From: Deltaproteobacteria bacterium RIFOXYA12_FULL_61_11 | GTDB taxonomy: Bacteria; Bdellovibrionota_F; JAHFAK01; YA12-FULL-61-11 | NCBI GenBank assembly: GCA_001799195.1 | Contig: MGSU01000209.1 | Location: forward strand, 1 to 34,840 | DNA: 34,840 nt | Direction: 5' to 3' | In this document: in pieces, positions 1,516 through 15,690 of the stretch | Position numbering within the stretch: position 1 is the stretch's first letter | How the letters are laid out: each line of letters begins with the position of its first letter | The notes under the pieces: generated by a model | Seen by the model: the letters and a program-made list of their open reading frames with translations, nothing else | Told to the model about the DNA's origin: nothing | The model's database searches: none | Made by a program: the position numbers and the translations under genes

Positions 1516-1817
1516 GATGCTCGGTTGTAAAGTTGCAGGAGGGATCCAGGCAGCACCCCTTGTGTTTCATAAGGATGACATACATACAAGATGTTGAATG
1601 ACCACAGGGGGTGATTCTTCTGACTGCTGAATTAGGAATGACGAGGGCTAAGGTGGGATCCATTCACGTGGGATTCATTCGTTGACAGGCAGCTAGAAAC
1701 AAGCAACGATGAAGCATTCAGTAGTTCTTTGACAAGTGAACCGGAACGAGGCTGTCCCTGAACCGGGGTGCATCAAGGATCGGGGGTAAGCCAGTGTGAT
1801 ACAGAGTTGAGCGTGCA

Positions 1818-3110
1818 GTTTGGGACTGCTCTCGAATCAAATGCTTTGAAGCCCGATGCATTGCTCACCCTGCGAAACTGTGAGTTTGGGACTGCTCTCG
1901 AATCAAATGCTTTGAAGCCCCTAAAACATCTGAGTCACCTGAGTCATGTGTTTGGGACTGCTCTCGAATCAAATGCTTTGAAGCCGCAGCTGGATCATGA
2001 GGACCTTGAAATATCGTTTGGGACTGCTCTCGAATCAAATGCTTTGAAGCCCAGGCTTCTTTCTTTCCAAGCCCCCAGTTGGTTTGGGACTGCTCTCGAA
2101 TCAAATGCTTTGAAGCCTCGATGGCACGGTCATACCGTCGATATCGGGGTTTGGGACTGCTCTCGAATCAAATGCTTTGAAGCCAGCCAATCACTACTAT
2201 AGTGATGCCGCTCTGTTTGGGACTGCTCTCGAATCAAATGCTTTGAAGCCACGGTCTCTCGAAGGCGCCGTTGCAGTTCGGTTTGGGACTGCTCTCGAAT
2301 CAAATGCTTTGAAGCCCCGGATGCGGTAATGTACCACCACCATCCCGTTTGGGACTGCTCTCGAATCAAATGCTTTGAAGCCGTTGCATCGGCTACGGAC
2401 GGGGTCTATTACGTTTGGGACTGCTCTCGAATCAAATGCTTTGAAGCCTGGAGGCAACAACGGGTGGGGAGCGAGTGGGTTTGGGACTGCTCTCGAATCA
2501 AATGCTTTGAAGCCCTCCTATGTAACGGCCGTGATCAGCGGCACGTTTGGGACTGCTCTCGAATCAAATGCTTTGAAGCCAACCCACGACCTTGTGCAGC
2601 TTCCCATCGGGTTTGGGACTGCTCTCGAATCAAATGCTTTGAAGCCCGGGGACCGTCGCGGTACGGCATCGGATGAGTTTGGGACTGCTCTCGAATCAAA
2701 TGCTTTGAAGCCAGAGGTCGGCAGTGTTGTGCTCCTCGACATGTTTGGGACTGCTCTCGAATCAAATGCTTTGAAGCCGCGAACGTGTCCTCGGCGTAGA
2801 CAACGCACGGTTTGGGACTGCTCTCGAATCAAATGCTTTGAAGCCCTAATGTCGAGTTTATCGAGTGGGACACTCGTTTGGGACTGCTCTCGAATCAAAT
2901 GCTTTGAAGCCGACCTTGTTTGTTCTATCAACGACCTTGCTCGTTTGGGACTGCTCTCGAATCAAATGCTTTGAAGCCCGCTCTCCACGAGCATGTTTGT
3001 GCCGTTGGGTTTGGGACTGCTCTCGAATCAAATGCTTTGAAGCCCAGCGAGCAGAGCAGGACTATCGGGCCGGAGTTTGGGACTGCTCTCGAATCAAATG
3101 CTTTGAAGCC
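1818..3110 (+). CRISPR. CRISPR array: 20 identical 36-nt repeats GTTTGGGACTGCTCTCGAATCAAATGCTTTGAAGCC, 19 spacers (16 x 30 nt, 3 x 31 nt)
   Basis: Repeats begin at 1818, 1884, 1950, 2016, 2082, 2149, 2215, 2281, 2347, 2413, 2479, 2545, 2611, 2677, 2743, 2810, 2876, 2943, 3009 and 3075. Plus orientation is inferred from the anti-repeat at about 3183-3200. Confidence 0.99.
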
Positions 3111-3136
3111 AGCATTCCTTCAACCTTTTGAAATGT

Positions 3137-3173
3137 GAATTCCTTTGGTGCGTTTTAGGCACTAAAGGAATTC
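3137..3173. other. Stem-loop: 15-bp stem (one G-T wobble on +) with 7-nt loop, GAATTCCTTTGGTGC-GTTTTAG-GCACTAAAGGAATTC
   Basis: Direct reading; sits between the last repeat and the candidate anti-repeat; no T-tract on either side. Confidence 0.75.
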
Positions 3174-3179
3174 GCAAGA

Positions 3180-3270
3180 AATTTCGAGAGCCTCCCACAT
3201 AAGCTGACCAACCCCAGGCTCTCCTGCTCGGCAGGACCCGGGGGTCGCGAGGTCACTTCTTTCTCTCCCC
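3180..3270 (+). ncRNA. Candidate tracrRNA (anti-repeat 3183-3200 plus tail with GC-rich hairpins)
   Basis: TTCGAGAGC (3183-3191) is the exact complement of repeat nt 11-19; after a 2x1 bulge, TCCCA (3193-3197) complements repeat nt 4-8, followed by C/U mismatch, A-U and U-G. The tail has TCCTGC-TCG-GCAGGA (3222-3236) and GACC-CGGG-GGTC (3235-3246), then a pyrimidine-rich tract. Ends are approximate. Confidence 0.7.
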
Positions 3271-3276
3271 TGACAC

Positions 3277-3582
3277 CTAGAAAAAAAACTGCAGTTGTTC
3301 GGGACGTCGTTCCGGTTCCTTGGCTCTGCCGCCGAAGAAGACCCGCATAGCCGACCATTGTAGATCGGTCAGCACCAGCGCGCGCACCTCGCCCTCCTGT
3401 GGTGGTCGGAGCCGGCGAAGATGGGTTTCGACCTTAGCCAGACTGGGGCAGGCCCGAGCATAGACGCTGTACTGGATCCTGTTGAAGCCGTCTCGTTCGA
3501 GGTCCTTGCGGAAGCGTGTGGCGATGCGCCGTTCTTCCTTGGTCCCGACCGGCAGGTCGAACATCACCACCAGCCAAGCCAT
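3277..3582 (-). CDS. cas2: CRISPR-associated endoribonuclease Cas2
   Basis: 101-aa product MAWLVVMFDLPVGTKEERRIATRFRKDLERDGFNRIQYSVYARACPS...; canonical Cas2 N-terminus. The start is inside the longer 3277..3915 ORF, immediately after cas1. Confidence 0.93.
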   Translation of the reverse strand: MAWLVVMFDLPVGTKEERRIATRFRKDLERDGFNRIQYSVYARACPSLAKVETHLRRLRPPQEGEVRALVLTDLQWSAMRVFFGGRAKEPERRPEQLQFFF

Positions 3583-3628
3583 GCGTAGCTCGGAACGCCA
3601 AGGGTAGGTGTGCGGACGCGGCACGGCA

Positions 3629-4609
3629 TCACCTGCGCCGTGCAGTTCGTGAGGCTTTGGGCACAGACGAAGCCGGAAGGAGCGGCGCGGTCTGGGGAAG
3701 GAACTCGGGTAGTTCGAGCGAACTGGGCAAGCGTTCGCCCATCGCCCGGCAGAAGCTCTGGACCATGCGATCGACGCCGTGGAGCAGGTCGGTGACCTTG
3801 CGCTTCGATAGGACTTTTTGTACACAACACGCAGCGGCAGCCCGCGCCCAGGCTCGGAACGCCGCGGCTTCATCTTCCACGGGGGCCTGCTGACGGCAGA
3901 ATTGCCACTGGGCAAGATCGATCATCGGCCGCAGCGGCTCGATCAGGTCGTCGGCCAGGGCAAAACTTCCGGCTTTAGCCGCATGGCCCACTCCAAGGGC
4001 TGGGATAAGCCCGTGTACATAAAGAGAGCGCAGAATCAGGGCACGCAGCACCGCATAGCCGTAATCCAATCTGCCGTTTGCGCCACTGCCGCAACCCGGG
4101 GTGCGACGGCGTTCGGCGGTTTCGCAGGCGGCGAGGTAGCGCGGCCAATAATAGCGGGCGCCCCGTGACTCGGCGGCCCGAGCCTTCTCGTCCGCAAGCC
4201 GTTCGGCCAACGCGGGGAGGAAACCAGGGTCCTCTTCTAAAACCAGTAAACAGCGGGCCTGAGCGCGAAGCTTGGCCTGAATCAACAGGCGAAAAACCCG
4301 TGTCTTCCAGGTTGCATTGAGATTCACCTGCCTGCGCAGGGTGGCTGTTGAGGTGGCTTGGTGGCAAGGCAGCGTGAAACTTGCCGGGCGATACCTGGCG
4401 TCGCACACCAAGAGCGGAACCTTGTGTTCGGCCAAGGCAGAGAGCAGCGGCAGTGAGAGCGTGCCCTGAAAGCTCACCGCGATCACCGCGGCCAGGTCTT
4501 CGAGCGGGAAGTTGTGCTCGTCAACCGCGCCGTCGTTGAGGATGAGGCGGTTCTGGGCGAGGGTGAGCTGCAACCCCGGCTTCAGCAGGTGGAGGAGGTG
4601 ATGCCCCAT
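3629..4609 (-). CDS. cas1: CRISPR-associated integrase Cas1 (type II)
   Basis: 326 aa; NGRLDYGYAVLRALILRSLYVHGLIPALGVGHAAKAGSFALADDLIEPLRPMID is a typical type II Cas1 core. Confidence 0.95.
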   Translation of the reverse strand: MGHHLLHLLKPGLQLTLAQNRLILNDGAVDEHNFPLEDLAAVIAVSFQGTLSLPLLSALAEHKVPLLVCDARYRPASFTLPCHQATSTATLRRQVNLNATWKTRVFRLLIQAKLRAQARCLLVLEEDPGFLPALAERLADEKARAAESRGARYYWPRYLAACETAERRRTPGCGSGANGRLDYGYAVLRALILRSLYVHGLIPALGVGHAAKAGSFALADDLIEPLRPMIDLAQWQFCRQQAPVEDEAAAFRAWARAAAACCVQKVLSKRKVTDLLHGVDRMVQSFCRAMGERLPSSLELPEFLPQTAPLLPASSVPKASRTARRR

Positions 4610-7600
4610 AGCCGAGTGCCTCCATTAAGTGACGGATATGCAACTCGAAGCCGTAGTATGGCAAGCCTGCGCTGAGAAACCCTTCTTTCCCTTGTACGAT
4701 GTGTGCTGGGCAAAGCCGTACATTCCCATTCTTATTGCATGACATGAATCGGTACTTCCCAGCTTGGGCTTTATTGGTAGCGCTCACAACCACTTCTCTT
4801 GGGAACTCGATGAGCTGCTTTTTCTGAAAGACATAAACCGGCGTGGGAAAACTAGCACGCAGTTGTCCGAGCTTTTCCCAAGGTTTCACCAGGTAGACTG
4901 CCCAGGTCCTTCCCTTCTTTGGATCAGGATAGACCAGATACGCAGTAGCATCGGTGTACTCGACGAAGACATTCGGACGCACCTCTCTACAGGCAGCAGG
5001 GTCCTTACCCAACACGTGGACCTTGTGAATGGGACGACCAGTTCCTGGATTATGTAGCGTTGCAACGAAAGCCGGGCTGAGTTTCCCCGTGTTGGGGGCT
5101 TTCTGTTGAAATGCATGCTCGTCGCCATGGGTGCGGCGAAATTCGGACAATGCCGCGGCGATGTAGCGCATTAGGACCTGGGGATAGATGTCATTGAGCT
5201 GTTTCTCTTTCAACTGGACTAACGGGACGCGCGTCACCAGTACCGTAGTTTCCTTGCCTTTGCGGTCGCGCTGCGGCCGCGGTCCGTAGGCCGTGGTGTT
5301 CATCATCTTCTGCTTCGCCGAAGTCCCCACCTTCTGCGTGGGGACGATATCCGGGACGCGTGCTCTGATCTGGGACCGAAGATGGTCGAAGGGGGTGCGC
5401 CACTGCTCGCGACGTGCCGAACCGAAGGGTGGTGCTTCCCGCCATCCCCCCCGCGAGAGAGGTTGATGGGCAGCCCAGGGCAAGGTACAGGCGATGACCG
5501 CGGCATCGAGGGCATGATGGCGCAGGTCGTGGCGGTTCTTGCCGCCTTCGTCATCCAGAGCAGAGGGCAGTAGTTCATCAAGTCCCCAGCAACGTCTGAT
5601 GCCGGCGGTGAGATAGCCGTTGGTGAGTTGGAAGAACTGTCCGGGTCCACCGGGCTGGTCGCTGGGGTCGCGGCCTTCCGGGGTGAGCCAGTTTTGGCGG
5701 AGCAGGCATAAGCCGCGGAGGGCACGGGCGATATAGGCGGTTTGGGTCAGGTCAGCAGGCGGTGCGAGCAGCGCGAGCGCCTCCTCCGGGTTGCCCTGGT
5801 GAAGGAACAACTGGAGCTTGAGGCCCTTGAAATGCTCACGGGCGAAGCGTTCGAGGCACGGCCAACGATCGGCCTCGCCCCAGGCAGCATGGGGTAGCTG
5901 ATCGTGCTTCTCGTGGTTGCAGTGGGTGTGGGCGACGGTGAGGTTGACCTGCTGGTCGCTCCCCCCGAGGGCCCGCGGCAGGATGTGTTCGATCTCGGCG
6001 TCGGCAAGATCGGCATGAAAGGGCTGGTGGCAGTAGGGGCAGACTTTCCCTACCTCTTTGGCCAAGCGGAAACGGAGCACGGCCTGGCTGCCTGCCGCGT
6101 GATGCTCTGCGGCCTCCTGTCTGGCTGCCTCGCGTTCCTCGCGCTGAGTGGCTTGTTTCTTTTTCAAGTCGTCGTTTGCTTTCTTGCCCAGCCCCAGCGA
6201 ACGCACTGCCTCGACCACGATCACCGCTGGCGAACCATGGTCCCGTTCGAGCCGATCGAGCAACCGGTCCAGCGCCTCGACCCGCTGGCGGACCAGAGGG
6301 TTGCGCAGCTCTCGCACGTACCGTGCGCGCGCGCTGGCGAGCGATTCTCCTGGCCGACGGAGCAGCGGTTGGAAGGTGCGGATGGTCCCCGTCCGCTCGT
6401 ACTCGTACCGCACAGCGCGCAAACAGGGGCGACAGAAAGCACAGCGACCATCGCTCAGTTTCCTGGCAGTGAGTTGCTGCCCTGGCAGGAGTTCGTACCC
6501 GTTCCGGTCTGCCCATTGCTGTACCAAGAGGTCGCGAGCCTGATCCTTCTTCTTGATACCCGGTTCGAGTGGTGTGTACCCACCGGTCTTGGCCAGCGCG
6601 CGCAACTCTTTCAATCCGGCTTGGTGCTTGGCGAGAATGTCGGCCAGCTCGGGAAGTGCAGCCTGGCCCACCGGTACCGCTTTACCCTGCACGGCGGAGA
6701 ACACCCTGTAATTCCCGAGCACAATCGCCCGCTGGGCCTCGGCGAACTCGGGGGCATCGGCCCGGCAGACGTTGTTCACCCCACAGGCCACGCACTTCCC
6801 CGGCTTGCGGTTGTCGAAGCGGGCTTGTCGCTGGTGCCAGACCCCGCCGTGGAGGCGATGTTGTCGACCCGCCGCTTCCGGTGCAGGGTGGTGACTGTCC
6901 TCTCCCCACGCGCCGTACAAGATGCGTTCGCGGGCTACGTAGAGGGTGGGCCACCTTTCACGCTGGGCTTCGACGATGGCCAGAAACTCCTCGCGGAGCA
7001 ACTCGCGAGGGAAGATAAGGTTCTTATGCCCCTCCGGCGCAATGGCCTGGCCAGGCTTCGGCCGTGGCAAGCACCCCATGGTGCGATCCCAGCGGCCTTC
7101 CTTCAGGGCGAGGTAGTGGCAGGCGAAACGGCACCCCCGGTCCTTCATGGCGGCTAGGAGCCCAGCGATCCGCGCAGCGGTCTCCTTGGCCTCTTTTTGA
7201 GCCGTCTTCTGCTCGGCCGTCAGTTCAGGCTCGTCATCCGCCGTCCGTTCCACTGTCTTCTTCTTCCACCATGCGTCGAGCCAGCCCCGGTGCTTCCAGA
7301 GGTGGAACAGGGCGGCGTGCAGCTCTTCGGGGCGCAATGGTTCGCCGTTCAAGGCCTGAAGGCGCAAGACCGCTGGGCTATCTAGTTCCGCGTTTGCCCC
7401 GGGACTTGGCAAACCGACCTCGGTAAGCATCGCCCTGAGTTGTTGCATCCTCTGGCGTCGGCTGCGGATGGTCCTGCGCATACGACGCAGGGTACGCCGC
7501 TCTTCGAGATTTCCCACTTTCTCTGGCACTACCAGCACACCGAGGTCGAGGAGATCAGGACCCCGGCGCACTGCCCAGCCTAGCCCGGCGGTTCCGACAT

Positions 7601-7658
7601 CGAGCCCTATAACGAGACCATGATGAAAACGTTCGTTGAGCACGCTTGTCTCGGTCAT
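4521..7658 (-). CDS. cas9: Cas9 endonuclease, compact type II-C-like
   Basis: 1045 aa; RuvC-I GLVIGLDVGTAGLGWAV, Arg-rich bridge helix RRTLRRMRRTIRSRRQRMQQL, RuvC-II VIVVEAVRSLG, HNH AEIEHILPRALGGSDQQVNLTVAHTHCNHEKHD, RuvC-III HHALDAAVIA. No csn2 or cas4 in the operon. Confidence 0.96.
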   Translation of the reverse strand: MTETSVLNERFHHGLVIGLDVGTAGLGWAVRRGPDLLDLGVLVVPEKVGNLEERRTLRRMRRTIRSRRQRMQQLRAMLTEVGLPSPGANAELDSPAVLRLQALNGEPLRPEELHAALFHLWKHRGWLDAWWKKKTVERTADDEPELTAEQKTAQKEAKETAARIAGLLAAMKDRGCRFACHYLALKEGRWDRTMGCLPRPKPGQAIAPEGHKNLIFPRELLREEFLAIVEAQRERWPTLYVARERILYGAWGEDSHHPAPEAAGRQHRLHGGVWHQRQARFDNRKPGKCVACGVNNVCRADAPEFAEAQRAIVLGNYRVFSAVQGKAVPVGQAALPELADILAKHQAGLKELRALAKTGGYTPLEPGIKKKDQARDLLVQQWADRNGYELLPGQQLTARKLSDGRCAFCRPCLRAVRYEYERTGTIRTFQPLLRRPGESLASARARYVRELRNPLVRQRVEALDRLLDRLERDHGSPAVIVVEAVRSLGLGKKANDDLKKKQATQREEREAARQEAAEHHAAGSQAVLRFRLAKEVGKVCPYCHQPFHADLADAEIEHILPRALGGSDQQVNLTVAHTHCNHEKHDQLPHAAWGEADRWPCLERFAREHFKGLKLQLFLHQGNPEEALALLAPPADLTQTAYIARALRGLCLLRQNWLTPEGRDPSDQPGGPGQFFQLTNGYLTAGIRRCWGLDELLPSALDDEGGKNRHDLRHHALDAAVIACTLPWAAHQPLSRGGWREAPPFGSARREQWRTPFDHLRSQIRARVPDIVPTQKVGTSAKQKMMNTTAYGPRPQRDRKGKETTVLVTRVPLVQLKEKQLNDIYPQVLMRYIAAALSEFRRTHGDEHAFQQKAPNTGKLSPAFVATLHNPGTGRPIHKVHVLGKDPAACREVRPNVFVEYTDATAYLVYPDPKKGRTWAVYLVKPWEKLGQLRASFPTPVYVFQKKQLIEFPREVVVSATNKAQAGKYRFMSCNKNGNVRLCPAHIVQGKEGFLSAGLPYYGFELHIRHLMEALGYGASPPPPAEAGVAAHPRPEPPHPQRRRG

Positions 7659-7883: not shown

Positions 7884-8708
7884 TTATGGTTTCAATCTCT
7901 TTTGTCCCTCGGGTTCGTCGAGATAGTTCTCGGCGCTCACGATCGATCGACCGGCCTCGGTTTCCAGGTTCTTTCGCGCTTCCCCGGCGATGGTACCGCC
8001 CTTGTGGGCTGCTACTTTGTTCTGGTCGAACCCCTGGGCATCCCGTTTCCGCGCGATCTCGGTGGTGGCAGCCTCGCCGAGCATGGAGAAGATGAGTTCA
8101 AGGTCGGTCATGTGGTCGCGCAGGTTCTCGCGCACGAGCCCCTTGATTTCCTTGTACTCGAACGGGGTGAGGCCGAAGGCAGCCTTCGAGATCTCGGCAG
8201 TCAGGATGGCGTATTCGGGCTGGCCCTGAACCCCACGCTTCTTCCACTCGTCGGTCAGCTCGGCCCGCACGGCGATACCACGCAGTCGTTTCTCGATCCA
8301 CACCTCGGAGTAGCCCTTGGCGCGGTAGATTTCTTTGGTTCGCGCCGTAGCCAGCTCGGGGTCCTCGATCTCCTGGACCCGCTCGTAGCCAACCTTGGCC
8401 AACCAACGCTTGAAGGGCTCGGCCTTGGGCGAGGGGATGGATTGGATGATACGGAAGATTCCCTCGGTGTTGGCGCAGTTGGTTTTCCGCTTCTTCCCAT
8501 CGAGTGCGATCAGTTCAAGTGGGGTACAGATTGTACCCCAGTAGGTATCGAGTTCCGGATCCCGTTGGCGCATTTTCTTGATGTATTGCCGTGGGTCGAT
8601 ACTGTCGGTCAGTACCACCACAACATCGGCAACCGAAAACCACCATTCGTTGTTGTGCAGCGTTCGCCGGATTTCTTTGCCTTTGAAGACGATGAGGTCG
8701 TTGGGCAT
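7884..8708 (-). CDS. BRO-family / DNA-damage-inducible protein D (DinD)-like
   Basis: 274 aa; N-terminal BRO-like FKGKEIRRTLHNNEWWFSVADVVVVLTDSIDPRQYIKKMRQRDPEL and DinD-like YAILTAEISKAAFGLTPFEYKEIKGLVRENLRDHMTDLELIFSMLGEAATTEIA. Confidence 0.85.
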   Translation of the reverse strand: MPNDLIVFKGKEIRRTLHNNEWWFSVADVVVVLTDSIDPRQYIKKMRQRDPELDTYWGTICTPLELIALDGKKRKTNCANTEGIFRIIQSIPSPKAEPFKRWLAKVGYERVQEIEDPELATARTKEIYRAKGYSEVWIEKRLRGIAVRAELTDEWKKRGVQGQPEYAILTAEISKAAFGLTPFEYKEIKGLVRENLRDHMTDLELIFSMLGEAATTEIARKRDAQGFDQNKVAAHKGGTIAGEARKNLETEAGRSIVSAENYLDEPEGQKRLKP

Positions 8709-9768: not shown

Positions 9769-10788
9769 ATGCAACTCGATTGGGGAAACCTGCCGTTCGC
9801 CTACCTGCCGACCAATTGTTATATCCAGACCGAATTCACCAAGGGGGCCTGGGGTCCCCTCTGTACCGTAGCCGAACCCACCTGTACTGTCCCCGTGGCG
9901 GCGACGTGTCTGCACTACGGACAGGAAATCTTCGAAGGACTCAAGGCCTTCAGGACCAAAGCGGGGAAGGTCGTCTTGTTTCGGCCCGAACAGAACGCAC
10001 GCCGCATGCAGTATTCGGCCATGCGCCTGTGCATGCAGGCTCCGCCCGAAGAACTGTTTCTCGAGGCCTGCGATCTGGCGATCAGGAAGAACCTCGATTA
10101 TGTGCCGCCCTATGGCACCGGGGCCGCCCTCTACGTCCGGCCGCTGCTGCTCGGTACCGACCCGATCATTGGGGTCAGTCCTTCCCTGAGCTATCGCTTC
10201 CTGGTCCTCGTCACCCCGGTCGGACCTTACTACCAGCACGGCTTCGCTCCGGTGAAGGGCTTGATTGTCGATGACTACGACCGGGCGGCGGCCCTCGGCA
10301 CGGGCAGCGCCAAGGCCGGCGGTAACTATGCCGCAAGTCTCCTCCCCTTGTTGCGCGCCCGCAGCGAGGGGTATTCCCTCTGCCTCTATACCCACCCCAC
10401 GAAACGCCACCTCATCAACGAGTTCGGGACCTCGAACTTCATCGCCTTCGATGCCGCCGGTATGTATTACACTCCTCATGCTCCTGAGTGCATCCTCGCC
10501 AGCGTGACCAACGCAAGTTTGCAGGTCCTGGCCCGAGCTCAGGGCAGGGAGGTCATGGTTGGTGACGTCGAGCTCGAGGACCTCGCCCGCTTCGTCGAGG
10601 TCGGTGCGGTCGGCACAGCAGCGGTGATCACGCCGGTCCACACCCTGGTTCATGGGGATCGGGTGTTCCGTTTCGGCAGCACGGACAAGGCCGGTCCGAT
10701 CTGCACCGGGTTGATCAAGACCCTCCAGGGTATCCAGTACGGTGATCTGGAAGACCGGTATGGTTGGATGCGCACCGTGGTCGGTTAG
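9769..10788 (+). CDS. ilvE: Branched-chain amino acid aminotransferase
   Basis: LHYGQEIFEGLKAFRTKAGKVVLFRPEQNARRM...GSAKAGGNYAASLLP; RBS AGGAGGGG before the ATG at 9769. Confidence 0.92.
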   Translation: MQLDWGNLPFAYLPTNCYIQTEFTKGAWGPLCTVAEPTCTVPVAATCLHYGQEIFEGLKAFRTKAGKVVLFRPEQNARRMQYSAMRLCMQAPPEELFLEACDLAIRKNLDYVPPYGTGAALYVRPLLLGTDPIIGVSPSLSYRFLVLVTPVGPYYQHGFAPVKGLIVDDYDRAAALGTGSAKAGGNYAASLLPLLRARSEGYSLCLYTHPTKRHLINEFGTSNFIAFDAAGMYYTPHAPECILASVTNASLQVLARAQGREVMVGDVELEDLARFVEVGAVGTAAVITPVHTLVHGDRVFRFGSTDKAGPICTGLIKTLQGIQYGDLEDRYGWMRTVVG

Positions 10789-10793
10789 CGGGC

Positions 10794-11567
10794 ATGGGCG
10801 CCTGCGAGCCTTTGCGGATAGTCTCTTGGAATGTCAATGGGTTGAGATCTATCCTTGGGAAGGGCTTTCGGGATTTCGCCCATGCTGAGGGCGCCGACGC
10901 CTTTTGCTTGCAAGAAGTCCGAGCCCTGCCGACGCAGGTCGGTGAGGTCTTGCCGGGCTACGACCACCTGTGGCACCCCGCCGCCAAACCGGGCTATTCT
11001 GGAACCCTGGTGTTGACCCGGGTGCCTCCCCTTCGGGTGGTCCGGGACATGCCCTTCGGCAAGGACGAGGCAGAGGGCAGGGTCCTTACCTGCGAATACC
11101 CGAGCTTCTACCTGGTCACGGTCTATACGCCCAACGCCCGGCACGGCCTGACCCGGCTCCGCTACCGACAGGCCTGGGACGAGGGTTTCTTGGCCTACCT
11201 CCAGGACCTTCGTGCGACCAAAGGTGTGGTGTTCTGCGGAGACCTGAACGTGGCGCACGAGGAACGGGACCTAGCCAGACCCGAGGACAACCGGGGCAAT
11301 CCGGGCTTCACCGATGAAGAGCGGGCCGGTTTCTCCTCGATCCTCGGTGCAGGTTTCCTCGACACCTTCCGTCTCTTTTCCGCCGAGGGCGGGCACTATA
11401 CTTGGTGGAGTTATCGCGGCGGAGCGCGGCGGAGGAACATCGGTTGGAGAATTGACTACTGCTGCGTATCCGGCGACTTGAAACCCCGGGTTGCCGAAGC
11501 CTCCATCCTGAGCGAGGTCGGGGGGTCGGATCATTGTCCGGTGCGGCTGGTCCTCGCTCCCTCGTGA
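10794..11567 (+). CDS. xthA: Exodeoxyribonuclease III
   Basis: LRIVSWNVNGLRSILGKGF...FCLQEVRA...FCGDLNVAHEERDLARPEDNRGNPGFTDEER...SDHCPVRL, typical ExoIII/AP endonuclease motifs. Confidence 0.93.
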   Translation: MGACEPLRIVSWNVNGLRSILGKGFRDFAHAEGADAFCLQEVRALPTQVGEVLPGYDHLWHPAAKPGYSGTLVLTRVPPLRVVRDMPFGKDEAEGRVLTCEYPSFYLVTVYTPNARHGLTRLRYRQAWDEGFLAYLQDLRATKGVVFCGDLNVAHEERDLARPEDNRGNPGFTDEERAGFSSILGAGFLDTFRLFSAEGGHYTWWSYRGGARRRNIGWRIDYCCVSGDLKPRVAEASILSEVGGSDHCPVRLVLAPS

Positions 11568-11582
11568 TCGGGTCGTCCTGGT

Positions 11583-11987
11583 TCAGGGATCGCCGAAGCC
11601 GAGCCCGCACTCGGGGCATTCGGACAAGGTCGTGGCAAAGGTCGTACCGCAGGCGGGGCAGATCGTCTCCGGTTTGTCCGGATCGAAGACCGCCGCCGCG
11701 AGCGTCGGATCGTACGCGAGGTCTCCGGCATCGCGTTGCCACTCTTCCCCGAGGTAGTCTCGCACAATGGGGAGGCCGCTCTCCGCAAACCAGACCTCGA
11801 CCGTGATCTTACAGCCGCGCGAGCAGTGTTCACCCTCGTGGACCAGGTCGACCGTCACCCCGCGTTCGGCCAGGTCGGCCTGGATGCGATGGGCGTCGTG
11901 GAGGTCGCGTTGGCCGAGGAAGAGCATGGGTTCTTCGTGGTCCTGGCCGCTCTCGTTCTCGTCGTCGAAGGAAGATTCATCGTGCAT
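11583..11987 (-). CDS. Zinc-ribbon-containing protein (DUF2007-like N-terminus)
   Basis: 134 aa from MHDESSF; AHRIQADLAERGVTVDLVHEG and C-terminal ICPACGTTFATTLSECPECGLGF. Confidence 0.6.
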   Translation of the reverse strand: MHDESSFDDENESGQDHEEPMLFLGQRDLHDAHRIQADLAERGVTVDLVHEGEHCSRGCKITVEVWFAESGLPIVRDYLGEEWQRDAGDLAYDPTLAAAVFDPDKPETICPACGTTFATTLSECPECGLGFGDP

Positions 11988-12067
11988 GGTCTGCCTCTCA
12001 GGGGGCCACTCGTTGCACCATGGTGCCAGGTGGAGGACCGAACCGCAAGTTGGAAGAGAACCCACCC

Positions 12068-12216
12068 GTAACCCTGCAAGTCTTGGGGGGGGGATTGCAT
12101 GTTGTTCGTCACCATGTTGGGGTGGCACCGACGGGGGTCCCCCGCCACGCGCAAGGATGAGCATGGTGGGGGTGAGAGGTGACAGGACCCCTCGAACCAC
12201 CCAAGACTGTAGGCAT
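12068..12216 (-). mobile_element. MITE-like modular hairpin element, copy C (internally shorter)
   Basis: Ends GTAACCCTGCAAGTCTTGGG... and ...CCACCCAAGACTGTAGGC; shares CACCATGCTCAT.CTTGCGC, GTGGCGGGGGACCCCCGTCGG.GCCACCCCAA and GGTGACGAACA with copy A in opposite orientation. Confidence 0.65.
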
Positions 12217-12657
12217 GCACCCAGCCACAACGGCCGGGCGGGTTCTCCCGATCGAACGTCAGGGCTGGAGCAGGTCCTGGTCGAAGAGCACGGTGCCGGC
12301 GGGTTCGGGTTGCAACAGGAGCGGATCCTCGAGGATCATGGCGGTCGGAGCCGGTATGATGTCGTCGTACAGCGGATCCCGGTTGGGAACCGTGGGCAGG
12401 GCAGTCGTCAGGGTGAACAGAAGCAAGCTGGAAACGGCGAGCATGGTCCCTCCTCGAGCGAGTGGTTCACGCGACCTTCTCGGCCTCTCTTGCAGGTTCG
12501 AGGTCGCTGAGGAACCTCGTTAGCAGGGCTCGTGCCGTCGCTGGTTATTCAGTTTAGCCGTTGAATAACATAGCGAAAATAGAACCAGTCAGAGTTGTAC
12601 CAACGCAGGATTCGAGAAGCCGAACGGCGTGTTTCGGAAAGGCGAATCCGCCTCGTG

Positions 12658-13482
12658 TCATTCGGGAGCGTTCGGAGCAGGGGAGAAGGCCTCGAGGTAG
12701 TGTTTTCGGAAATGATCTTTCAGCTCGACAAGGTGGAGGTCGTTGTCGTGATAGAGGACTTTTTCCCAACTCCCTCCCACGGCGTTTGGTAAAAGCACGA
12801 AGCGTCGGCCGAAATCGGATCGGTGCTCGTCGACGGCGGATTTGCGGGCCTCGATCGAATCCCCCTGGAAATGATCGGAAAAATCGTTGAGATCATCGCC
12901 CACAAACAGCACGATGTCGTTGGTTGCTCCGACCGAGGCGCGGCGGGTTTCCTTGCTGCGCCCCTGACCGGTGCGGAGGAGGAGACGGTCGGGGCCGAGC
13001 TGCGGCAGGCCCAATACCGACAACTGCCGAAGGGTGTCCTCCGCGGTGACGGTGCGGCGGTTGGTCAGGTAAAAAATAGCCACGCCGGCCCGATCCACCG
13101 CTGCGAGGAAGTCGGCGGCGCCGGGGATCAACCGAGGAGGGCCGTTCCGGAGCCAACGGTAGAAATCTTCGGGGTACTGTTCGGGGTTGAGGACCAGATA
13201 CCCGTCGTAGAGAGCATTATCGAGCACGGTCTCGTCCACGTCGATGATCACGGCGCGAGGGCGGTCGGACGGATGCGCCAGCGCTTCCTCCAGGCGTTCC
13301 CTGGCAATGTTGAAGGCTTGGTAGCACAAGGCCCGGTATTCGGCCGAGGTCTGGTGCCAGAGCACTGCCATGAGCAAGGCCTTGTCGTGGAACGCGAGAC
13401 CCGGCCCGGTCGGGGCATGGTGAGTACCCTGGCAACCGGCGAGGAGGAGGCCGACGGCGAGAAAGAGGAAGGGGCGCTTCAT
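12658..13482 (-). CDS. Secreted acid phosphatase / 5'-nucleotidase, lipoprotein e(P4) family
   Basis: Lipobox LLLAGC; AVIIDVDETVLDNALYDGYL; IFYLTNR; VGDDLNDF. Start set at MKRPFLF. Confidence 0.88.
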   Translation of the reverse strand: MKRPFLFLAVGLLLAGCQGTHHAPTGPGLAFHDKALLMAVLWHQTSAEYRALCYQAFNIARERLEEALAHPSDRPRAVIIDVDETVLDNALYDGYLVLNPEQYPEDFYRWLRNGPPRLIPGAADFLAAVDRAGVAIFYLTNRRTVTAEDTLRQLSVLGLPQLGPDRLLLRTGQGRSKETRRASVGATNDIVLFVGDDLNDFSDHFQGDSIEARKSAVDEHRSDFGRRFVLLPNAVGGSWEKVLYHDNDLHLVELKDHFRKHYLEAFSPAPNAPE

Positions 13483-13591
13483 GGAAAATGGTCTCGATAC
13501 CATACGGCCGAGTATACTGATCGGGTCCAGCGGGGGCAAGCATTGTGGGACAGAACGCAGGATGCCCTCTTCTCACGATCAGAGGTGCAGC

Positions 13592-14569
13592 ATGGACGAA
13601 GCCAACGGAACGAATTCTCGGCTTGAGGCGGGAGGTCGAACCCCCGTCCCTACCGAGGTCTTGCACGCCTCGGAGGTCGCCGCACGCCAAGGGGGGGGGC
13701 GCCTTGTCCTCGTGGCCAGCAGGAGGAGCGACCTGCCAGCCTTCCATCTCGACGAGCTTGTCGAGGGTCTGCGCAGGGGAAGGTTCTATCCCCAACCTCC
13801 GCGCCAACCTCTCAGGGAACTCCGTTTCGGACCGGCAGACATCCACAGCCTCGGGTTGTGGAGTCAGAATTTTTCCGCCTGGCTCCCCAGACGTCGGGAG
13901 GTGGAGCGACTGGGGTATCGCTGTTGGTACCGCTGTACCATCATGCCCGACGATCCCTGGTGCAAACCCTTCGCCCCGCCGGTCGACCTCCAACTCCGCA
14001 CGCTCGAGGACCTGGTACAGGGGGCAACCGCTGGAGCGGTCACCGTGGCAGTGGATCCACTGATCGTGTACCGGAGGCTCGGAGAGACGGATTGGCGGGA
14101 CAATGCTCCGGCGGCCGCTCTCGAACGGATCTTCGCCGCCATTGCGGCGCTGGGGCTTCCCGAGGTGACGACCAGCTTGTATGACCCCTATCCCCGGGCC
14201 GAGGTGCGAGCGAAGGCGAGAGGTTTGGTTTTCGCAAACCCCGGCAGCCCTGAGGGTCGGCCTGTCTATGAGAGGGTCATCCAGCGTTTCCAGGGGCTTG
14301 CAGCATCAATGGGTTTGAGGGTCAGGACCTGCGCTGAACCCCTGCTCGCCGATCGGGAAGGATGCTCGGCCGGCGCTTGCGTCGACGGAGCCAGGCTCAA
14401 CGCCCTCTTCGGTCCTGGGGCCAGCGAGAGTCCGGACAAAGGCCAACGCCGGAACAAAGGCTGTGGTTGCACGAGGGCCTTGGATGTTGGCCGCTCGGTC
14501 GAGCATGGACCCCTGGGCCACGTCTGTGGGCATCGCTGTCCTCAGTGCTATGCGCGTGCGCACCGCTGA
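13592..14569 (+). CDS. DUF1848-family protein
   Basis: VLVASRRSDLPAFH...C-terminal Cys cluster KGCGCTRALDVGRSVEHGPLGHVCGHRCPQCYA. The exact start is uncertain. Confidence 0.7.
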   Translation: MDEANGTNSRLEAGGRTPVPTEVLHASEVAARQGGGRLVLVASRRSDLPAFHLDELVEGLRRGRFYPQPPRQPLRELRFGPADIHSLGLWSQNFSAWLPRRREVERLGYRCWYRCTIMPDDPWCKPFAPPVDLQLRTLEDLVQGATAGAVTVAVDPLIVYRRLGETDWRDNAPAAALERIFAAIAALGLPEVTTSLYDPYPRAEVRAKARGLVFANPGSPEGRPVYERVIQRFQGLAASMGLRVRTCAEPLLADREGCSAGACVDGARLNALFGPGASESPDKGQRRNKGCGCTRALDVGRSVEHGPLGHVCGHRCPQCYARAHR

Positions 14570-14579
14570 AGGAGCTCGT

Positions 14580-15656
14580 TCAACGGTCGTGGCCGATGAG
14601 ATAGCGGCGGCCCGGTAACGTGCGAAGGATTGCTACCGCGAGGAGCGTTAACCCCAAGGTTGTCAGGAGGGTTGGCAGCACGAGCGCCGGGGTATGGGCG
14701 TTGAGGCCTCGGAAGGCCAAGAGCCTGACGAAACCGTCGAGGACCAGGGGGTGGACCAGGTAGAGAGCGAAGGAGTTGGCTGCACAGTAGTCGAGGAAGG
14801 TATTGAAGCGTCCCGGTCTTTCGAGGATGGGGAGCCATCGCAGAAGGAGCATCGCGCCGCAGGCGAGTTGGAGGGTGCGCAGAGGGGTATCGAAACCGGG
14901 TTCCGGACAAGAGGTCATATAGATGAACGGCATTGCCGTGAGGAGCGAGAGGAAGAGCCACGGAGAGACCTCGGTCGCGAGCCGACGATAATACCCTTGG
15001 TGGACGGCGAGATGCATGCCGGCATAGAAGTAGAGTCCCTGGATGATCAAGACGTTGAGTATATGAGGGACAACGTTGCCGAGGATTGGTGGTTCGCCCA
15101 ACGCGGCCTGGAGGAAACTCCAGGCGACCTGGAGAGCCAGCCAGACCAGGAGTAGTCTCTGGCCCGCGGCTAGACCCGAACAGCGGGAGAGGAGGTGTCG
15201 GAACAGGGGGAACATCGCATAGAGCACCACCAAGGTGCTGAGGAACCAGAGATGGTAGAAGGCTGAACCGTTGAGCAGCGTGTTGAGTAGGCTCGAGGGA
15301 GAGAATTCTGCAGCAGCGCGAGGAGTTCCCCTCCATACGCAGGAATATTTGAAGAGCAAGGCGAAGGAAGAGAAGGCCAGATACGGCGGGAGAATGGCCT
15401 GGGCTCGGCGCTGGTAAAAGCGGCCAAGGTTCCCCCTCGTCCCATAGGCCGAGGCCAACGAGTAGCCGGAGATGAGGACGAAGAGAGGTAGACTGAAGCG
15501 CGGGAAGAAATTGAGGACCCGGAGGACGTACTCGGCGACGTTGGCGTAGTCGAAGCAACGGCCTCCGGTGCTGTGGATGAAAAGGACCCCGAGGGTCGCG
15601 ACGCCGCGGAGGAGGCGGAGGTCGTAAGCGGGCACGGCTCGAGAACTCATGTTCAT
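14580..15656 (-). CDS. Acyltransferase 3 family membrane protein
   Basis: YDLRLLRGVATLGVLFIHSTGG, FSLPLFVLISGYSLAS and many TM segments. Confidence 0.82.
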   Translation of the reverse strand: MNMSSRAVPAYDLRLLRGVATLGVLFIHSTGGRCFDYANVAEYVLRVLNFFPRFSLPLFVLISGYSLASAYGTRGNLGRFYQRRAQAILPPYLAFSSFALLFKYSCVWRGTPRAAAEFSPSSLLNTLLNGSAFYHLWFLSTLVVLYAMFPLFRHLLSRCSGLAAGQRLLLVWLALQVAWSFLQAALGEPPILGNVVPHILNVLIIQGLYFYAGMHLAVHQGYYRRLATEVSPWLFLSLLTAMPFIYMTSCPEPGFDTPLRTLQLACGAMLLLRWLPILERPGRFNTFLDYCAANSFALYLVHPLVLDGFVRLLAFRGLNAHTPALVLPTLLTTLGLTLLAVAILRTLPGRRYLIGHDR

Positions 15657-15690
15657 GGGCCGAGATCAAGGTAGAGGGTTGGAGAAAAGC

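Follow-up and report, generated by a model that had tools for sequence, protein, structure and literature searches.

The window, i.e. the whole stretch of 34,840 nucleotides that was analysed, contains a type II CRISPR-Cas locus consisting of cas9, cas1, cas2 and an array of 20 repeats (Table 1). The assignment to type II follows from the presence of a Cas9 with RuvC and HNH motifs, of cas1, cas2 and the array, and of an anti-repeat to the 5' part of the repeat that is followed by a structured tail. The array, the leader and the tracrRNA are co-directional and contiguous. Two further genes or gene pairs were recognized in the neighbourhood: directly upstream of cas9 there is a gene with a BRO-N domain (7884-8708), and upstream of the array (275-1224) a HigA-like HTH gene stands beside a Gp49-like (DUF891) gene, the two being likely a toxin-antitoxin pair.

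Table 1. Coordinates and main properties of the features at the locus (positions in the window)
Feature	Position	Strand	Remark
Weak candidate array promoter, TTGACA-17-AACGAT	1682..1710	+	score reached by 14% of shuffles
CRISPR array	1818..3110	+	20 identical 36-nt repeats, 19 spacers of 30-31 nt
Spacer 19	3045..3074	+	leader-adjacent, inferred newest (sequence; repeat decay at the opposite 5' end in relatives; II-C polarity in PMC12080349)
Last repeat	3075..3110	+	can pair in cis with 3183-3200 (predicted fold)
Leader between last repeat and anti-repeat	3111..3182	+	without recognisable promoter
Leader motif AGCATT	3111..3116	+	family consensus AG[CG]ATT directly after the last repeat
Inverted repeat with 18-nt arms	3134..3176	+	strong hairpin; no U-run, hence not an intrinsic terminator
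tracrRNA anti-repeat	3183..3200	+	pairing, genome-wide uniqueness, position as in relatives
tracrRNA tail hairpin	3205..3255	+	asymmetric internal loop CUC (3219-3221) / C (3237), as in relatives
cas2	3277..3594	-	convergent with the tracrRNA
cas1 (type II)	3629..4609	-	
cas9	4521..7658	-	1045 aa, Cas9d-like; RuvC and HNH motifs; zinc-type CxxC at residues 289, 406 and 540

The Cas9 of the window matches the NCBIfam Cas9d model (NF049971) over its full length with 323 bits, which is below the cut-off of 375, and the general Cas9 model with only 216 bits; its CxxC motifs resemble those of Cas9d proteins. In the tree it is sister to an Elusimicrobiota-rich clade of Cas9d-like proteins (support 95/85), the next group outward is formed by compact Cas9d-like proteins, and the ordinary type II Cas9s stand apart. 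Regarding subtype II-D, the grouping with Cas9d is well supported (100/99), albeit on a long branch, while the score stays under the model cut-off and no cas4 was found among the examined genes next to cas9, thus the cas1-cas2-cas4 module of II-D (PMC12669027) is not represented there. Regarding subtype II-C, the gene content is restricted to cas9, cas1 and cas2 as expected, the protein lies outside the II-C clade in the tree, and the -10 box in each repeat, which is a feature of some II-C systems only, was not seen in the window.

As all repeats of the window are identical, the array itself gives no polarity signal. Mutated repeats are found at or near the 5' end of the array in seven relatives and in none of them at the tracrRNA end, and in II-C systems new spacers enter at the last repeat (PMC12080349); on these two grounds spacer 19 is taken, by analogy, as the newest one. 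Searching phage and plasmid collections with the spacers of the window returned no matches, and no convincing self-match of a spacer was seen within the window.

The anti-repeat, the leader and the tail in the window and in related loci

The preliminary description had placed the last repeat and a candidate anti-repeat on one strand, and this arrangement was confirmed: the 20-repeat array was delimited, and the anti-repeat core TTCGAGAGCCTCCC was located at 3183-3196. It pairs with the repeat through 9 bp at repeat nucleotides 11-19 and through 4-5 additional bp at nucleotides 4-8. By duplex energy such a short anti-repeat is unremarkable, and energy alone would not find it; since the pairing energy is not outstanding, the assignment rests on where the anti-repeat lies, on its strand and on the related loci. 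Across the assembly (4.64 Mb) its pattern has a single occurrence, at 3183, besides the antisense of the array, and a control pattern read backward gave 10 matches, which corresponds to 0.0002 expected in the 166-nt gap. A better anti-repeat elsewhere in the genome would have contradicted the original proposal; allowing up to three mismatches to the 20-nt anti-repeat, none was found elsewhere in this assembly, which is 87% complete.

Single-protein scans of genomes and viral contigs for close relatives returned none. Relatives were recognized by means of a family motif, C.Y.A.K.G.WD, common to the window and locus L031, which was searched as DNA; the homologous loci obtained belong to Elusimicrobiota, apart from one of Candidatus Spongiihabitans. 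Such a Cas9 is carried by 19 of the 341 genomes from the phylum of genome G450. Each of the 14 array-bearing relatives sampled has its anti-repeat in the stretch that separates the last repeat from cas2, in the orientation of the array; in most of them it comes 45-100 nt after the last repeat, and it typically ends with CTTAAC or CTCAAC. The distance in L161 is not comparable due to masked bases (N) in the gap, and in L138, L157 and L162, where the best-scoring stretch lay elsewhere, the anti-repeat was picked out by eye (in L138, for example, as GGGGAATCTTAAC). The anti-repeats of the relatives are often long (20-30 bp) and suited to pairing in trans. Next comes a long hairpin whose asymmetric loop is of the CUC/C form, and in most relatives the last repeat is directly followed by AG[CG]ATT.

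The position on the array strand, the CUC/C loop and the leader motif (as AGCATT) recur in the window. The 3x1 internal loop of the window tail appeared in 13 of 3000 dinucleotide shuffles, and the tails of 11 of 15 relatives fold with CUC or CAC opposite C. Among the relatives 13 of the 14 pairs of the tail hairpin covary, and 94% of the cells pair versus 28-40% in slid controls. The covariance model built from these tails (R1) matches relatives, including the ones left out of model building, and gave no match to the window or L138; since R1 does not match the window, RNA homology between the window and its relatives rests on position, the leader motif and one internal loop. None of the Rfam tracrRNA families fits the window or the relatives. 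Judged by this sequence comparison, the placement of the tracrRNA in the leader is real and conserved, and it is not unique to the window.

Some related loci show peculiarities of their own. In L166 the gap between array and cas2 holds two tandem tracrRNA copies, each with an anti-repeat and a tail hairpin, for one array. In L167 and L169 a lone repeat, a leader and a tracrRNA with a long anti-repeat stand beside cas2, which looks like either an array without spacers or a natural hairpin of repeat and anti-repeat. L160 has a second array (9996-15677) with 86 copies of a 32-nt repeat of different type beside the cas9 of the same genome. Finally, the IMG/VR viral contig L170 encodes a Cas9 of the Elusimicrobiota-rich clade (about 29% identity to that of L160), next to which array, cas1 and cas2 were not detected.

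It had been proposed earlier that pairing of the last repeat with the anti-repeat would enclose three hairpins. RNAfold of 3045-3290 returned this multiloop (-96.5 kcal/mol, z = -5.6, a value reached in none of 200 shuffles). The three hairpins are accordingly predicted in the window; as a set they are not conserved across the relatives, where hairpins 2 and 3 show no sequence conservation. The third one, described as a stem of 15 bp, is present but its size was understated, its arms (3134-3151 and 3159-3176) being 18 nt long and 89% complementary. The 3' arm of hairpin 1 is the leader motif AGCATT itself, AG[CG]ATT being found also in relatives whose repeats contain no AATGCT, and the loss of this hairpin costs about 1 kcal/mol; a designed role for hairpin 1 was rejected on both grounds. 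Since the repeats of the relatives contain no AATGCT, the hairpin is probably fortuitous and reflects the leader motif. An origin of the 3134-3176 hairpin from a decayed repeat plus an extended anti-repeat was also considered and dropped, as the 10 matches in 15 positions were unconvincing by a rough estimate.

Transcription of the array and the tracrRNA, and the mode of guide use

No terminator-like site was found between the array and the tracrRNA. A search of 3111-3182 based on consensus sequences, either that of E. coli or the TTGACA-N16-18-TAnnnT signature of the genome, detected no promoter, in agreement with the initial impression that none is clearly visible in the leader. The signature is enriched in the assembly (75 sites versus 27 in the control), and it was absent from 3075-3300 and 1300-1830 even if its first box was relaxed to 4/6. 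Many of its sites in the assembly have TAGGNT-like -10 boxes. In many relatives an extended -10 element (TGTTATAAT) stands at the repeat ends, and several have a -10-like box in the leader; the best -10 score in the repeat or leader of the window is 3.2, versus up to 10.2 in the relatives, in most of which the leader promoters are no better than shuffled sequence and therefore suggestive only. Because neither the repeat nor the leader of the window shows a promoter, read-through from the array into the tracrRNA appears more plausible here than in the relatives. Co-transcription of the two is plausible, and the single-transcript step, taken alone, has about even odds.

The element downstream of the array likely encodes the tracrRNA for a type II system that has a Cas9d-like effector and works with dual guides. 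What the sequence itself shows is the anti-repeat, the tail hairpin and the layout common to the relatives. According to the proposed mechanism, the array and the tracrRNA would be transcribed together from upstream of the array, and the anti-repeat would pair in cis with the last repeat and in trans with the other repeats. RNase III or another nuclease would cut the shared precursor, and Cas9 would be guided, for every spacer, by a crRNA:tracrRNA pair. Folding back onto the last repeat may be a by-product, or a processing intermediate by which a single molecule would give rise to the first tracrRNA together with the newest crRNA. Cis pairing of the last repeat with the anti-repeat was predicted in 13 of the 14 loci tested (the window and 12 of 13 relatives), and the repeat and tracrRNA of the window are also predicted to pair in trans (-25.2 kcal/mol; a cofold was run too). 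The TIGR02191 and PF14622 models gave no RNase III in this assembly (87% complete), although the enzyme is present in another genome of that class.

One alternative explanation departs from this one only in how the tracrRNA is transcribed: a promoter within 3111-3180 that escaped recognition could drive a separate tracrRNA, as happens in Campylobacter jejuni, with read-through and cis pairing being incidental. We regard this as possible, though less likely than not. There is a precedent with a -10 box before the tracrRNA in C. jejuni, and the -10-like elements before the anti-repeat and at the repeat ends of relatives speak for it, but the -10 score of the window is low compared with theirs, and nothing in 3075-3300 fits the TTGACA-TAnnnT type of the genome.

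Somewhat doubtful is the suggestion that the inverted repeat 3134-3176 is not part of a guide RNA and acts at the DNA level, either in adaptation by Cas1-Cas2 or through a regulator. It is located on the leader side, which is the spacer entry side in the relatives, and in several of them (L137, L156 and L166) inverted repeats without relation to it occupy the corresponding position of the leader; however, no protein is known to bind this inverted repeat.

It is unlikely that the uncut RNA, comprising spacer 19, the last repeat, the leader hairpins, the anti-repeat and the tail, loads directly into Cas9 as a natural single guide. The modelled cis fold is stable (14.3 expected pairs), the anti-repeat covers only repeat nucleotides 1-19, the loop is closed by the hairpin with the 18-nt arms (the leader fold of the window, -29.8 kcal/mol, is the strongest in the family), and neither a separate tracrRNA promoter nor RNase III was seen. 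Nevertheless, every repeat of the array is predicted to form this duplex in trans, C. jejuni uses two RNAs with the same layout, hairpins 1 and 2 are not conserved, and RNase III may sit in the missing 13% of the assembly. Furthermore, spacer 19 is the only one that such a fusion could serve, which leaves 18 spacers dependent on dual guides. Dual guides cut from a shared precursor are considered most likely, ahead of a working single guide. The stronger proposal that the leader is a natural single-guide scaffold, which presents the newest spacer and the tracrRNA in one piece and loads Cas9 without RNase III, seems improbable; if it were true, the newest immune memory would get a privileged, processing-free guide.

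A chance match of the anti-repeat, with the real tracrRNA elsewhere, is disfavoured and very improbable: the pairing is short, its energy is not outstanding and 13% of the genome is missing, but the anti-repeat is unique in the assembly, far below one match was expected in the gap, and all the relatives with arrays have it at the same position.

Occurrence of the layout and comparison with known systems

In 20 of 25 ordinary type II loci surveyed the best anti-repeat lay upstream of cas9, at a distance of about 4.4-5.5 kb from the array; the cis layout was seen in two (L044 and L045), and three were unassigned. It should be added that L040 and L100 gave weak results, and that the top matches in L043, L047 and L098 were uncounted array-side copies of the repeat, which were set aside. 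Two divergent Cas9 loci with arrays on viral contigs (L172 and L173) have, by eye, the usual layout with the anti-repeat upstream of cas9. A tracrRNA following the array is uncommon but known. As far as the searched open-licence papers show, what has not been described is the conservation of this layout across a deep Cas9d-like clade, together with a GC-rich member without visible promoters. Members of this clade have the tracrRNA within the leader, collinear with the array and adjoining the inferred site of spacer entry, a layout which makes a shared crRNA-tracrRNA precursor and a natural fused guide for the newest spacer testable.

The closest known arrangement, and the best-studied one of this kind, is that of the type II-C system of C. 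jejuni, which has the same cas9-cas1-cas2 genes and a tracrRNA directly after the last repeat on the array strand. There a 73-nt tracrRNA transcript downstream of the array has its own -10 box and is processed by RNase III (PMC4607530, PMC3656092). The window differs in that -10 boxes are seen neither in its repeats nor upstream of its tracrRNA, whereas C. jejuni has them at both places and its RNase III processing was demonstrated, and in that its Cas9 groups with Cas9d-like proteins. With the mostly Elusimicrobiota clade of NF049971 (L135-L139, L156-L169) the window shares the gene order, the tracrRNA site, AG[CG]ATT, the CUC/C loop and the conserved Cas9 motifs RFDNR, NVC and GRs.FCrP; unlike these loci it is an outgroup scoring below the model cut-off, is GC-rich and has a tail missed by the covariance model. 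The type II-D Cas9d proteins MG34 and MG102 (PMC9755519, PMC11706934) are likewise zinc-ribbon Cas9s, and the window groups with the Cas9d-like L030, L032 and L033 at 100/99. However, published II-D loci either carry cas4 along with cas1 and cas2 or lack adaptation genes altogether (PMC12669027), whereas in the window cas1 and cas2 occur without a cas4 among the examined genes next to cas9, and the Cas9 is 1045 aa long.

Single RNAs that guide a nuclease are known from elsewhere. The tracr-L natural single-guide RNA of S. pyogenes (PMC11417352) is one self-folding RNA acting as Cas9 guide, as the fused RNA of the window would be; tracr-L is transcribed from a promoter of its own and contains a short guide directed at the cas promoter, whereas the would-be guide here is the last array spacer. 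In the IscB omega RNA (PMC9755519) the guide and the scaffold are also on one RNA, but its guides do not derive from a CRISPR array with repeat:anti-repeat pairing. The layout presented here bears on the relation between the two-RNA guides of Cas9 and the omega RNA of IscB, which is a single molecule.
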